Positions 46,788-59,948 of a DNA stretch of 64,000 nucleotides are shown here, in pieces (position 1 is the first letter of the stretch; each line of letters starts with the position of its first letter). Source of the DNA: an uncultured Lachnospiraceae bacterium (GTDB taxonomy: Bacteria; Bacillota; Clostridia; Lachnospirales; Lachnospiraceae); the NCBI GenBank assembly GCA_947627365.1, contig CANQVT010000007.1:1-64000 (forward strand), read 5' to 3'. The position numbers and the translations under genes were made by a program. The notes under the pieces are model-generated. The model did not search any database, had not been told where the DNA came from, and saw only the letters and a program-made list of their open reading frames with translations.

Positions 46788-46900
46788 TAGCGAAGTAGGA
46801 ATTTGTGCGTTAAGTTGTCAGCGGCTGGGGAGTCGCCCTGAACCGAAAAGTCCGTCGGAAGATTGGGCTTGCGATACATTTTCCGCACCCGTTGCTACAG
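46788..46900 (+). promoter_or_regulatory. Tetrahydrofolate (THF) riboswitch
   Basis: GUAG..., GCGUUAAGU, GGGA and GCACCCG segments in the order of the THF riboswitch consensus; closing pair tagcga/ttgcta; directly upstream of folT. Confidence 0.75.
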
Positions 46901-46979
46901 TATGAGGACGCCTCATAATGTGGAGGGAATATTATTTATTAACTCGTTCACTTAATTCACATTGTGGAGGTGTTTTGTC

Positions 46980-47546
46980 ATGCAGAAAAACAAAAAGACA
47001 ATCTGGGACACTCGTACACTGGTTTTCCTCGGATTTCTGGTCGCACTGCACATTGTGCTGACACGTCTGGTCGTGATTGATCTCGGCGGCTCGTACCGCA
47101 TCACGATCGGCAGCGTGTGCACAGTGTTGGCCGGACTCTGGTTTGGGCCGCTGGGCGGCGGCGTCTGCGGCATGGTGGCGGATCTGCTCGGCTGCCTGCT
47201 GAAAGGCTACGCGGTCAATCCGCTGATCACGGTTGCCGCGATGCTCTGGGGGATCATTCCGGCGCTGTTCCGTCCTCTGATGACGGGCACTCGCGTGCGC
47301 AAGATCGTGTTCATCTGCATCGCGACGGTGATTACGTCTGTGCTGTCTACGCTGGTTTTCAATACGGCGGGGCTGGTGTTGATAAACGGTTTTAGCTTTT
47401 ACGCGATCATGCCGGGGCGTGTCGCGCAGTGGGCGCTCATGACGCCGGTCTACTGTGTGTTGATCAGCCTTCTGTACTTAAGTCCGGTGACGCAGCTGGT
47501 ACATAATGTGACAGCGCAGAAGGTGAAGGATACCGCGAAGGCGTGA
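46980..47546 (+). CDS. folT: Folate-family ECF transporter S component
   Basis: RTLVFLGFLVALHIVLTRLVVIDLGGSYRITIGSVCTVLAGLWFGPLGGGVCGMVADLLG. Confidence 0.88.
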   Translation: MQKNKKTIWDTRTLVFLGFLVALHIVLTRLVVIDLGGSYRITIGSVCTVLAGLWFGPLGGGVCGMVADLLGCLLKGYAVNPLITVAAMLWGIIPALFRPLMTGTRVRKIVFICIATVITSVLSTLVFNTAGLVLINGFSFYAIMPGRVAQWALMTPVYCVLISLLYLSPVTQLVHNVTAQKVKDTAKA

Positions 47547-54394: not shown

Positions 54395-56647
54395 ATGGCG
54401 ACGATTGATTTTGAGAAGCCGGAGTATTATATCAACAGAGAGTGCAGCTGGCTCGGATTCAACAGCAGGGTGCTCTCGGAGGCGAGAGACAAGAGCCTCC
54501 CGCTGCTGGAGCGCCTGAAATTTCTGAGTATCACTTCCTCTAATCTGGACGAGTTCTTTATGATCCGCGTCGCGTCCCTGAAGGACATGGTGCACGCGAA
54601 GTACACGAAGAAGGATATCGCGGGGATGACGCCGCAGGAACAGCTCGCGGCGATCGCAGTGCAAGCGCATGAGCTGGTGGCGCAGCAGTACAGCACGTAC
54701 AACCGCTCCCTGCTCCCGCTGATGAAGCAGTGCGGGTTGGAGCTTGTGACAGAGCATGAGAAGTTGACGAAGCAGCAAAAGGCGTTCGTAGACCAGTATT
54801 TCGAGGAAAATGTCTACCCGGTGCTGACGCCGATGGCGATGGACTCGGCGCGGCCGTTCCCACTGATCCGCAACAAAACGCTGAATATTGGAGCCCTGAT
54901 CTCGAAGAAGGATGAGAAGGACGCGAAGGATGCGAAGAACGCGAAAGATACAAAGGATGTAAAAGACGCCAAGGACGCGAAAGATGCAAAAGACGTGAAA
55001 GAGGCGAAGGGCGCAAAGGATACAAAGGACGCGAAGGAGAAGACAAAATATGAGTTCGCGACGGTGCAGGTGCCCTCGGTGCTGCCGAGGATCGTGCGGC
55101 TCCCGGAGGGATCGGACGGAAAGCGCAGCGTGATCCTGCTCGAGGAGATCATCGAGCGGAACATCGACAAGCTGTTTCTGAATTACAACGTGGTCTGCGC
55201 GCACCCATACCGGATCATGCGCAACGCCGATCTGGCCTACGACGAGGACGAGGCCGCCGACTTGCTCAAGGAGATTGAGAAGAAGCTGAAAAAGCGCCAG
55301 TGGGGCGAGGTCATCCGTCTGGAGATCGAGGAGAAGATGGATCCAAAGCTACTGAAGATCCTGAAGACGGAGCTGAATGTGAAGGAAGAGGACATCTACA
55401 AGATCAGCGGCCCGCTGGACCTGACCTTCCTGATGAAGCTCTATGGCACGGAAGGGATGGATGAGTACCGTTACGAGCCGTACAAGCCGCAGAGCGTGCC
55501 GGGCATGAACGACGAGGAGGATATCTTCACGCAGATCCGCAAGGGGGATATATTGCTACATCATCCGTACATGACCTTTGTGCCGGTCGTGCATTTTGTA
55601 CAGCAGGCGGCGAAGGATCCGGATGTGCTCGCGATCAAGCAGACGCTGTACCGCGTCAGCGGACATTCGCCGATCGTGGCGGCGCTCGCACAGGCGGCCG
55701 AGAACGGCAAGCAGGTGACGGTGCTCGTCGAGCTGAAGGCGCGCTTCGACGAGGAGAATAACATCCTCTGGGCGAAGATGCTGGAGCAGGCGGGCTGCCA
55801 CGTAATTTACGGACTGCTCGGCTTAAAAACGCACAGCAAGATCACGCTGGTGGTGCGCCGGGAGGAGGACGGCATCCGGCGCTACGTGCATCTCGGCACC
55901 GGCAATTACAACGATTCCACGGCGAAGCTCTACACGGACTGCGGAATTCTGACCTGCGCGGAACCGATCGGCGAGGATGCGACAGCCGTATTCAACATGC
56001 TCTCCGGGTATTCGGAGCCGAAGCACTGGAACCGTCTGGTGCTCGCGCCGCTGTGGATGCGGGACGCGTTCATGCGTCTGATTCAGAGGGAGACGCGCCA
56101 TGCGAAGGCGGGGGAGCCGGCCCAGATCGTTGCGAAGATGAATTCGCTCTGCGATAAAGGAATCATCGCGGCGCTCTACGAGGCGTCCGCGGCGGGTGTG
56201 GAGATCGACCTGATCATCCGTGGGATCTGCTGTCTGCGGACGGGGATTCCGAAGGTCAGCGAACATATCCGGGTGCGCTCGATCGTAGGGAATTTTCTGG
56301 AGCACGCGCGCATTTTCTACTTCCGCAACGGCGGGGACGAGGAATTCTACATGGCGAGCGCCGACTGGATGCCGCGCAACCTTGACAAGCGCGTGGAGAT
56401 CCTGTTCCCGGTGGAGTCGCCGGAGATTCGCGAGAAGGTGCGGCACATTTTGCAGATTCAGCTTGAGGACAACGTGAAAGCGCATGTGATGCAGCCGGAC
56501 GGCAGTTATGAGAAGATCGACAAGCGCGGCAAGACGCTTTTGTGCGCGCAGGATTACTTCTGCGAGGAGGCGGTGAAGCTCGCGCAGACGGCGCCTGAAG
56601 AGACGAGAAGTCGGGTGTTCATCCCCGCGGAGCCGGCGGAAGATTGA
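54395..56647 (+). CDS. ppk1: Polyphosphate kinase 1 with a KDA-repeat insertion
   Basis: YINRECSWLGFNSRVLSEARD, FASVQ-like EFATVQVPSVLPRIVRLP, HHPYMTF, KQTLYRVSGHSPIVAAL, GLKTHSKITLVVRRE. Confidence 0.93.
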   Translation: MATIDFEKPEYYINRECSWLGFNSRVLSEARDKSLPLLERLKFLSITSSNLDEFFMIRVASLKDMVHAKYTKKDIAGMTPQEQLAAIAVQAHELVAQQYSTYNRSLLPLMKQCGLELVTEHEKLTKQQKAFVDQYFEENVYPVLTPMAMDSARPFPLIRNKTLNIGALISKKDEKDAKDAKNAKDTKDVKDAKDAKDAKDVKEAKGAKDTKDAKEKTKYEFATVQVPSVLPRIVRLPEGSDGKRSVILLEEIIERNIDKLFLNYNVVCAHPYRIMRNADLAYDEDEAADLLKEIEKKLKKRQWGEVIRLEIEEKMDPKLLKILKTELNVKEEDIYKISGPLDLTFLMKLYGTEGMDEYRYEPYKPQSVPGMNDEEDIFTQIRKGDILLHHPYMTFVPVVHFVQQAAKDPDVLAIKQTLYRVSGHSPIVAALAQAAENGKQVTVLVELKARFDEENNILWAKMLEQAGCHVIYGLLGLKTHSKITLVVRREEDGIRRYVHLGTGNYNDSTAKLYTDCGILTCAEPIGEDATAVFNMLSGYSEPKHWNRLVLAPLWMRDAFMRLIQRETRHAKAGEPAQIVAKMNSLCDKGIIAALYEASAAGVEIDLIIRGICCLRTGIPKVSEHIRVRSIVGNFLEHARIFYFRNGGDEEFYMASADWMPRNLDKRVEILFPVESPEIREKVRHILQIQLEDNVKAHVMQPDGSYEKIDKRGKTLLCAQDYFCEEAVKLAQTAPEETRSRVFIPAEPAED
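54904..55047 (+). repeat. Tandem codon-level repeat encoding KDAKDxKD inside ppk1
   Basis: EKDAKDAKNAKDTKDVKDAKDAKDAKDVKEAKGAKDTKDAKEK. Confidence 0.9.
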
Positions 56648-56658
56648 GGAGGAAAGAA

Positions 56659-57723
56659 ATGTACCGGGAACATACAAAAGTGGTAAAGATCGGCGACCGC
56701 GTGATCGGGGGCGGCAACCCGATCCTGATCCAGTCGATGACAAACACAAGAACCGAGGATGTGGCGGCCACGGCCGCGCAGATTGCGAGACTCGAGGCAG
56801 CGGGTTGCGATATTATTCGCTGTGCTGTGCCGACGATGGAGGCTGCACAGGCGCTTGGCGAGATTAAAAAGAGAATTCATATCCCGCTGGTGGCTGACAT
56901 CCATTTTGACTACAGGCTTGCGATCGCAGCGATCGAGGCGGGGGCGGATAAGATCCGCATCAACCCGGGTAATATCGGCAGCACGGACCGTGTGCGCGCG
57001 GTGGTCGACGCGGCGAGAGAGCGGGACATCCCGATCCGGGTCGGCGTCAACAGCGGTTCGCTTGAGAAGGAGATCGTCGAGCGCGACCACGGAGTGACCG
57101 CGGAGGGGATCGTCGAGAGCGCTCTGCGCCAGACGGCCGTGATCGAGGATATGGGTTATGACAAGCTTGTCATCAGCATCAAGTCCTCGGACGTCCTGAT
57201 GTGCGCGAAGGCGCACGAGCTTTTGGCGAAGAAGACGGTTCACCCGCTGCACGTCGGCATCACGGAAGCAGGGACGCTGCTGTCCGGGAATATCAAGTCG
57301 GCAATCGGCCTGGGACTGATCCTCTCGCAGGGGATCGGGGACACGATCCGTGTCTCGCTGACCGGAGACCCGCGCGAGGAAGTAAAGTCCGCGAAGCTGA
57401 TCCTGCGCACGCTTGGACTGCGAAAGGGCGGGATCGAGGTGGTTTCCTGTCCGACCTGCGGGCGCACGCGCATCGATCTGATCGGATTGGCGAACCAGGT
57501 GGAGGAGATGGTCGAGGACATCCCGCTTGATCTTAAGGTGGCTGTGATGGGCTGTGTCGTGAATGGCCCGGGCGAAGCGAAGGAGGCAGACATCGGCATC
57601 GCCGGAGGCATCGGAGAGGGACTTCTGATCAAGAAGGGAGAGGTTGTCCGCAAGGCGCCGGAGAGCGAACTTTTGAGTACGCTGCGGGAAGAACTGCTTC
57701 ACTGGGATGCGAAAGAGAACTGA
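56659..57723 (+). CDS. ispG: 4-hydroxy-3-methylbut-2-en-1-yl diphosphate synthase
   Basis: VIGGGNPILIQSMTNTRTEDV; SCPTCGRTRIDLI; GCVVNGPGEA. Confidence 0.95.
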   Translation: MYREHTKVVKIGDRVIGGGNPILIQSMTNTRTEDVAATAAQIARLEAAGCDIIRCAVPTMEAAQALGEIKKRIHIPLVADIHFDYRLAIAAIEAGADKIRINPGNIGSTDRVRAVVDAARERDIPIRVGVNSGSLEKEIVERDHGVTAEGIVESALRQTAVIEDMGYDKLVISIKSSDVLMCAKAHELLAKKTVHPLHVGITEAGTLLSGNIKSAIGLGLILSQGIGDTIRVSLTGDPREEVKSAKLILRTLGLRKGGIEVVSCPTCGRTRIDLIGLANQVEEMVEDIPLDLKVAVMGCVVNGPGEAKEADIGIAGGIGEGLLIKKGEVVRKAPESELLSTLREELLHWDAKEN

Positions 57724-57823
57724 AACCGAATTGTTTATTGCTTTTATATTTCACACAATTGTTTGCACAAAAGCATTTTTAAAGAAAAAGAAAGAGAAAT
57801 TTGTGCAAAATATTCGAAAACAG

Positions 57824-57852
57824 TTGACTTGTCGGGATAATTATTGTATTAT
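57824..57852 (+). promoter_or_regulatory. Promoter of a free-standing transcript
   Basis: TTGACT-N17-TATTAT. Confidence 0.75.
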
Positions 57853-57859
57853 TCATATG

Positions 57860-58066
57860 ATTTTTATGAACACAGTATGGGAACGAGACGGCACAAAGCG
57901 ATTTATGCCGACCACATTGGCATAAGTATCCCGGCAGGACGGGAGAAGAGGCAGCATGGGGCCGGGACTTATGCCTTGTGTTCATATAAAAAGAGAGTGC
58001 TTGGGAAACAAAGCGAAGATACCATACGGTACGTTTGCAGTGAATTCCGGGCACTCTCTTTTTTGC
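57860..58066 (+). ncRNA. Candidate structured non-coding RNA, family unassigned
   Basis: Own promoter, two coaxial helices (57865-57875/57976-57986 and 57919-57935/57961-57975), 3' rod-shaped terminator hairpin ending in TTTTTT; no convincing ORF. Confidence 0.6.
57992..58064. terminator. Long rod-like terminator hairpin (12-bp stem, inner hairpin)
   Basis: gagagtgcttgg ... ccgggcactctctttttt, inner gcgaagatacc-atac-ggtacgtttgc; may also terminate the convergent minus gene (aaaaagagag). Confidence 0.7.
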
Positions 58067-58073
58067 ATCGTAT

Positions 58074-59948
58074 TCAGTGCAGCTGGATTCCCATGATGCG
58101 GCAGGCTCGTGTGCCGATCACGGCGATATCCTCATAGACGGCGGGCGAGGCCTCGATCGAGCCGTTGCTGATCTGACAAACATCGAGGACATCTCCGCTG
58201 AGGGCGTCCATCAGGTACATATATCCCGCGCAGCTGCAGTAGATCACACGGCCGCTTCCGTCTGAATTGTATACGCAGACGGGAGAGGACCAGGCGTAAT
58301 ATGCCTTGTGCTCCCAGACGATCCTGCCGGTAATTCTGTCCAGACAGGCAAGCACGCCGTCGTACAGGCCGCCTGTGCGAGAGACCGTGACGTACAGATA
58401 GTCGGAGAGCTCATGCTTTCCGACCGCGATGGTCGACTGCACGCCGCCGGACACGCCGTCGACCGTGTAGCATTCATAATCCGTCTGCCAGACGACCTCG
58501 CCGTTCTCCGCGTCGATCTTCCAGATCGGGATCGTCGCGGAGGAGGAACTTCTCCATCCAAGGTGGAAGGAGGTGCTGATATAGAGGTACAGATGCCCGT
58601 CCTCGAATGTGAGAACCGGGGTAGAGTTTGTATCGTCCAGCGTATCCTGCACCCAGACGAGCTGCAGGGTGTTCAGATTCAGGCACATGAGATTACCGCC
58701 ATTGTCCGCGACGAACAGATATCCTTTGTAGACGGCGGCGCTTGTCTCCATACCGACCCAGTAGGAGCCGGCCGTGGTCCGTACGCCGCTGTAACGCCAT
58801 TTGACGATCGGGTCGGGCGCGATAGAGAGCGTGCCGGCCGCTTCGTCATATGCGGTGTTGAGCTTCATCAGGTAGAGAATGCCGTTCTCGCCGGGATAGA
58901 TCAGCGTGTCTGTCTCGGCGTCTACGAGGGCCGAGGAGTCAAAATAGCTCAGAGAGCCGCGCAGGGAGAAGGGGTCGTTGTTCCCGAAGGTCATCATGAC
59001 GCTGCAGTCCAGCAGGTTGACGATGAAGACGCGGGCCGTTCCTTCGCTGCTGTCGTAGCCTGCTCCCACATACAGAATCGGATACCCGCGCGGATCAAGG
59101 GCTCCGCTTCCCTTGAACGTGTAGCCGAGCCAGAGCGGGTCGCGTGTTTTTTCTCCGGTGCGAAGATTGAGAAAATAGACGTACCCGTCCATACAGGCGT
59201 AGATTACTTCGACGAGTTCGTCGTCCTCTTTTGCCTCGTCGTACAGATTCATATGTTCCTTTGCCGCACGCGGCCATTTCATCATCAGCGGCTGCCCGGT
59301 CCATCCGCTTCCGGACCAGCTTGCATTGCCGTAGGTCAGTCCGCCTGTGGTCTGGGTCCAGATGCCGGACATTGTGTCGACGGACATTTCCGCGAAGCCA
59401 TATGAGGGACTGTTGCGGAAATTATCGCCGCGGAAGGTGACGATTCCTTCTGCGCTGGTGTAATCCTCGCCGGGATCGAAGCTGATCTCAGAGGACGGAG
59501 CATATTCGGCTGTGCTGTCCAGGATCGTGCCGTTTACTTCCACTTCGGTGAATTCGATCAGATTGTCCGGATTGGTCGTGTCTATGCAATATGGATGAAA
59601 TTCCGGGTCGGGAGCTTCTGTCTGGATCTCCTCCGCAAAGGTCAGCGCGCTGTCCGTCTCGGTCTCCGTTTCCGTTTCCGTGGCCGCTTCGTGTTCCGTC
59701 TCTGTTCTCCAGCCATAGCGGGAGAATCCGATCCGGCCGGAAGCAATGTCTGAGACCAGTGTGACGGGATCGGTTTTCTGATGAATGCAGACCAAGGCCA
59801 GAACGGCGCACAGCGACAGAAGGACACACCCCGCCGCGAGCAGGGAAACGCGCAGCGCGCGTGATCTCTTCCTCGTGGAATTCCCGGACGGTTGTGATTT
59901 GTCGGCGTATCGGCTGAATTGTCTGTCGTAATCGTTTTCTGTAGACAT
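58074..59948 (-). CDS. Membrane-anchored PQQ-like beta-propeller protein
   Basis: N-terminal TM; propeller motifs ENGEVVWQTDYECYTVDG, DRITGRIVWEHKAYYAWSSPVC. Confidence 0.85.
   Translation of the reverse strand: MSTENDYDRQFSRYADKSQPSGNSTRKRSRALRVSLLAAGCVLLSLCAVLALVCIHQKTDPVTLVSDIASGRIGFSRYGWRTETEHEAATETETETETDSALTFAEEIQTEAPDPEFHPYCIDTTNPDNLIEFTEVEVNGTILDSTAEYAPSSEISFDPGEDYTSAEGIVTFRGDNFRNSPSYGFAEMSVDTMSGIWTQTTGGLTYGNASWSGSGWTGQPLMMKWPRAAKEHMNLYDEAKEDDELVEVIYACMDGYVYFLNLRTGEKTRDPLWLGYTFKGSGALDPRGYPILYVGAGYDSSEGTARVFIVNLLDCSVMMTFGNNDPFSLRGSLSYFDSSALVDAETDTLIYPGENGILYLMKLNTAYDEAAGTLSIAPDPIVKWRYSGVRTTAGSYWVGMETSAAVYKGYLFVADNGGNLMCLNLNTLQLVWVQDTLDDTNSTPVLTFEDGHLYLYISTSFHLGWRSSSSATIPIWKIDAENGEVVWQTDYECYTVDGVSGGVQSTIAVGKHELSDYLYVTVSRTGGLYDGVLACLDRITGRIVWEHKAYYAWSSPVCVYNSDGSGRVIYCSCAGYMYLMDALSGDVLDVCQISNGSIEASPAVYEDIAVIGTRACRIMGIQLH

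Follow-up and report, generated by a model that had tools for sequence, protein, structure and literature searches.

Several described groups of RNA resemble the element analysed here, which lies at positions 57824–58066 of the window (the whole 64,000-nucleotide stretch of an uncultured Lachnospiraceae genome, contig CANQVT010000007.1). 6S RNA (RF00013) is likewise a free-standing transcript of about 200 nt with a closing stem and its own promoter, and some Firmicutes possess two 6S RNAs. The S domain of SRP RNA (RF01854/RF00169) offers a superficial likeness in the loop, where CAGG..GGA..(A)GGCAGC in the present RNA can be set against CAGG..GGAA..AGCAGC. The CsrB/RsmZ-type RNAs, which act as CsrA sponges, carry several GGA motifs in unpaired purine-rich stretches, as does this RNA. 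The lineage-specific, intergenic, trans-acting small RNAs of Firmicutes share with it a sigma-A promoter, a structured body, a strong intrinsic terminator and a narrow range. Finally, the candidate structured RNAs of the human microbiome (PMC8040213) are also intergenic structured RNAs of gut bacteria that match nothing in Rfam. The main text of that survey, on which our comparison was based, names neither ispG nor Lachnospiraceae, and this RNA may already have been detected computationally there. Our literature searches returned nothing on this RNA.

The earlier note had assigned the element to no family, and an Rfam 15 scan of the region bore this out, with nothing at the gathering thresholds and nothing convincing at E<=10. 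Identification as SRP RNA was rejected: neither the RNA nor its divergent homolog in G003 matched the model (G000 denotes the genome holding the window and other G numbers denote further genomes), and a canonical SRP RNA was found at G000:C53 with 179.8 bits. In contrast to the SRP S domain, the RNA has no conserved upper helix and no GNRA tetraloop, the computed folds shared no stable helix within the P3 loop, and the CAGG side (5' half) of that loop is unconserved in G009, G016 and G003. A CsrA sponge is also unlikely, as no CsrA (PF02599) was found in any of 10 genomes, 8 of them carriers of the RNA, by a search that recovered the CsrA proteins of E. coli, B. subtilis and T. maritima as controls; the genome holding the window is 84.5% complete and several of the relatives are more than 95% complete. 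Unlike the Firmicutes small RNAs it otherwise resembles, the RNA matches no small-RNA family in Rfam, and its junction and loop are more elaborate than a simple antisense RNA. It represents a lineage-specific RNA family that is not yet listed but is ordinary in kind.

When 57824–58066 was reread directly from the sequence, the promoter, the helices P1 and P3 and a duplicated ttatgcc were all found where the earlier note had placed them. The sigma-A-type promoter on the + strand consists of TTGACT (57824–57829) and TATTAT (57847–57852) separated by 17 nt, agrees with the consensus at 10 of 12 positions, and would be expected to start transcription at about 57859–57860. A TTGACTT-N17-TATAAT-like promoter is kept in the homologs, that of G003 being TTGACA-17-TATAAT, and column identity is 77% in the promoter versus 54% in the spacer just upstream of it. 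The promoter, the helices and the P3 loop are all more conserved than the flanking spacer. At the 3' end stands P4, a long Rho-independent terminator hairpin (57988–58064, + strand) with an inner hairpin and a T6 run at 58059–58064; the hairpin and T6 described earlier were therefore present, and the 12-bp stem given for it was found to be a 19-bp outer stem in the minimum free energy (MFE) fold. This outer stem shows C-G/U-A covariation. P4 is probably bidirectional, because the A-run on its 5' side is a T-run on the other strand; a simple terminator scan with a loop limit of 8 did not list it. In G003 a terminator-like hairpin of entirely different sequence, lacking a U-run unlike those of the other carriers, was seen at L039 1628–1676. 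The 210-nt transcript has an MFE of -84.7 kcal/mol, compared with -51.2 ± 4.0 for dinucleotide shuffles (z = -8.35, 0/200), much of this z coming from the 19-bp terminator stem. The RNA is present in a single copy in its own genome and had no match among the plasmids or phages searched, and on these grounds a mobile element or repeat was rejected. On sequence comparison, the locus is very probably a real and conserved RNA gene.

The predicted consensus fold is a three-way junction of P1, P2 and P3. The two directly stacked helices of the earlier note, of 11 bp and of 15 bp with a 2-nt bulge, are both present (P1 and P3); the P2 hairpin (GA(G/U)-A-CGGC / GCCG-AUC) and the conserved purine-rich apical loop of P3 had been overlooked, and it is the addition of P2 to P1 and P3 that makes the junction. 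All of these elements lie on the + strand. The closing helix P1 pairs tatgaacacag (57865–57875) with ttgtgttcata (57976–57986), which directly abuts P3. Its 5' strand is near-invariant in 7 genomes, and in G003 the helix is kept with different bases, partly mismatched; because P1 is almost invariant, it says little by covariation. A variable, purine-rich linker, J1/2 (57876–57884), is uAGGAGaaA-like in several homologs and leads to P2, in which GAG-A-CGGCA with its bulged purine (57885–57893) pairs with UGCCGACC (57906–57913), the latter being GCCGAUC in several homologs. Both strands of P2 take part in covariation: its pairs change between C-G and U-A and between G-C and G-U, and from G-C to A-U in G003. 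Refinement by hand suggests that P2 is 5'-GAU(A/G)CGGC/GCCGAUC in several genomes and that G003 has a perfect 7-bp version, GGUCAGC/GCUGAUC; the lower part of P2 is mismatched in the G000 and G069 copies. The J2/3 linker, ACAUU (57914–57918), is ACAYU in seven genomes and ACGAC in G003. P3 is formed by ggcataagt(at)cccggc (57919–57935) and gccgggacttatgcc (57961–57975), whose end abuts the 3' strand of P1, and it encloses a purine-rich apical loop of 25 nt (57936–57960) with the conserved sequence AGGACnGGAGAAGAGGCAGC. With 86% column identity (the spacer ahead of the promoter has 54%), this loop is the best-conserved long unpaired segment, and its motif GACGG..AGAAAGGCAGC is still recognisable in the divergent G003.

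Covariance analysis in related genomes, which the earlier note had proposed as a check, showed P2 and P3 to covary above both shuffles and slid controls. In the eight-sequence alignment, which leans towards the consensus fold because it was fitted to the model, 98.4% of pair cells held standard pairs, and slid controls paired at only 30–44%. Pairs changed on both sides numbered 10, versus 3.3 ± 1.3 in shuffles (0/500 reached 10), counted over only eight homologs of which seven are close. Seven of these pairs fall among the 15 of P3, two in P2 and one in P1. P3 and P2 also covary in a MAFFT alignment of six sequences.

DNA similarity identified the element in five more members of the genus, and a covariance model (R1) raised the carriers to 8 of 47 genus genomes, including the divergent G003 at 30 bits; the 69.6 bits that G003 obtained with model R2 are so by construction, since R2 was built with it. 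The G003 homolog keeps the architecture with a changed sequence. The named relatives among public genomes are MAGs of uncultured Lachnospiraceae from the rabbit gut ('Lapin'). In an ispG tree the seven placeable carriers formed one clade (0.99). The eighth, G023, is off the tree, its ispG being split between contigs, and there the 3' end of ispG stands immediately before the RNA. Outside the genus, shallow searches of 397 genomes of the family and 392 of the order (8–9 candidates scored per genome) gave no homolog, at a depth where remote ones may have been missed; a deeper search of 40 family genomes gave none either. A match in G022 (E = 0.48) was judged to be chance. Judged by these genome sequences, the putative RNA gene is limited to a single clade within an uncultured genus of Lachnospiraceae. 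It exemplifies a structured RNA gene that occupies a fixed chromosomal site in one clade of gut Lachnospiraceae and was not detected in the sisters of that clade. Nothing already known is overturned by it; its value is that of an RNA gene that matches nothing in Rfam, is solidly supported by comparison, is restricted to one clade and offers a defined conserved loop to probe.

The constant upstream neighbour is ispG (GcpE; 56644–57723, + strand; PF04551, 492.9 bits); it is separate from the RNA, which lies directly 3' of it in every carrier (8/8). The non-carriers that were read have other genes after ispG, often a polC-like gene (identity by eye). Downstream, the neighbouring gene (58074–59948, - strand) is convergent, as the earlier note had said, and by domain match encodes a PQQ_2-like beta-propeller. 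This neighbour varies: G000, G005, G009 and G029 have the beta-propeller gene; G016, G069 and G023 have the locus of a two-component LuxR-type regulator; and G003 has a co-directional glgC-like gene (identity by eye). The beta-propeller gene does not adjoin the RNA in G016 or G023. In G069 (L054), only a short C-terminal remnant of it is left immediately 3' of the RNA and continues into the locus of the two-component regulator, which suggests a deletion in that lineage.

Because the downstream neighbour varies between genomes, the RNA is not the leader of a fixed gene, and the co-directional downstream gene that a riboswitch or cis-leader would have is absent from the main group, in which the neighbour is convergent. 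An encoded peptide was also rejected: no reading frame survives the variation in core length (123–126 nt), and G009, G016 and G023 lack the ATG that follows GGAGAAGAGG in G000. The consensus matches, the fold and the conservation instead describe a transcript with its own predicted promoter and terminator and with covarying helices, and the earlier reading of a free-standing ncRNA of about 200 nt was supported.

On balance, we lean towards a stand-alone, clade-specific small-RNA gene whose product would act in trans as a regulator through the P3 loop. The proposal that it acts in trans comes only from the free-standing anatomy, and is the simplest reading because the structure is kept while the neighbour changes. 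Transcription would begin at the RNA's own housekeeping-type promoter, as the conserved consensus match suggests, and would end at the strong hairpin terminator, which is probably common to the convergent gene. The RNA would fold into the three-way junction of the P1 closing stem, the P2 hairpin and P3 with its 25-nt loop, P1–P3 serving as a stable scaffold that may present the conserved loop GACnGGAGAAGAGGCAGC and the linkers. C/U-rich mRNA sites could then recognise the loop and linkers in trans. Near-complementary sites to the loop were not enriched in eight genomes and in most of them were fewer than with a reversed-pattern control. The idea that the loop pairs antisense with a shared target was rejected, as the 13-mer complement (<=1 mismatch) was no commoner than the reversed control and gave scattered hits, with no shared target found in the eight genomes. 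The functions that remain would be presentation of the loop to a protein, or to mRNA sites too short or imperfect for the 13-mer search.

The lack of enrichment of complementary sites also speaks for another possible explanation, which we hold at distinctly lower confidence: an RNP scaffold, in which a dedicated protein would be bound by the conserved loop and the junction, and the RNA would function in a stable complex or as a protein decoy, not by base pairing. Conservation of a long purine-rich loop, carried by a covarying stem, is consistent with such binding; against it, CsrA, the obvious candidate for binding GGA, was not found in any of the 10 genomes searched. A bolder form, in which the junction and purine-rich loop would constitute a dedicated protein or ligand site and the RNA a new ncRNA class (a clade-specific RNP without known counterpart), is speculative, and we consider it rather doubtful.

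It is unlikely that the element acts in cis, as the 3' UTR or terminator region of ispG or as the downstream gene's leader, maintained chiefly to end transcription between neighbours. The constant adjacency to ispG and the strength and apparent bidirectionality of P4 would fit such a role, as would the co-directional glgC-like gene in G003, where a leader role is possible because that gene lies downstream of a hairpin without a U-run. However, a conserved promoter separates ispG from the RNA, the gene on the downstream side differs between carriers (convergent in the main group), and termination alone would not require the conservation seen in P2, P3 and the loop.

The earlier note had also suggested a divergent 6S-like RNA. 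A divergent or second 6S RNA sequestering RNA polymerase would match the element in its similar size, free-standing position and closed, rod-like arms, and is nevertheless very unlikely. The 6S model RF00013 had no match in 57700–58100 of the window at E<=10, or in G003 at E<=5. Nor does the consensus fold have the large, two-sided central bubble that separates the closing and terminal stems of 6S RNA: on the 3' side P1 follows P3 without a gap and P2 stands on the 5' side, so that no open-promoter-like bubble is formed. A canonical 6S RNA of G000 was found elsewhere, at L001 1501–1680 (- strand; G000:C74:6193–6372), with 64.3 bits to RF00013.

The mutually exclusive helices proposed in the earlier note did not hold as a conserved competition. 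In the G000 sequence, ttatgcc does occur twice (57903–57909 and 57969–57975), and both copies are complementary to ggcataa (57919–57925); the alternative and consensus folds lie within about 1.3 kcal/mol of each other, with a probability of about 0.5 each. This near-equality is seen only in G000 and its closest relative, G069. In G009, G023, G005, G029 and G016, the consensus fold is the MFE and the alternative hairpin is 4.3–12.9 kcal/mol worse, and in G003 the MFE contains P3 and a long P2, being neither the aligned P1/P2 nor the alternative. Across the alignment, pairing in the alternative hairpin is at the level of shuffled columns (79.2% vs 79.0%), and its helix is broken in most homologs, with one pair unpaired in 5 of 7 cells and mismatches at others. 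The alternative hairpin is fortuitous in the G000 copy and its closest relative and is not a conserved switch; since neither shuffles nor energies point to conservation of the alternative pairing, a metabolite- or state-dependent switch between two folds is extremely improbable, even with the two folds equally probable in G000.

Two further features were observed elsewhere in the window. A THF riboswitch (RF01831, 56.3 bits) lies at 46789–46896 on the + strand, upstream of the gene for a small membrane protein (46962–47546) that by eye resembles the S component of an ECF-type folate transporter, an ordinary pairing with a THF riboswitch. The polyphosphate kinase gene (54395–56647) contains in-frame tandem repeats at 54907–55038 (+ strand), which encode K-D-A-K-like units over about 45 residues, within or beside the middle domain.
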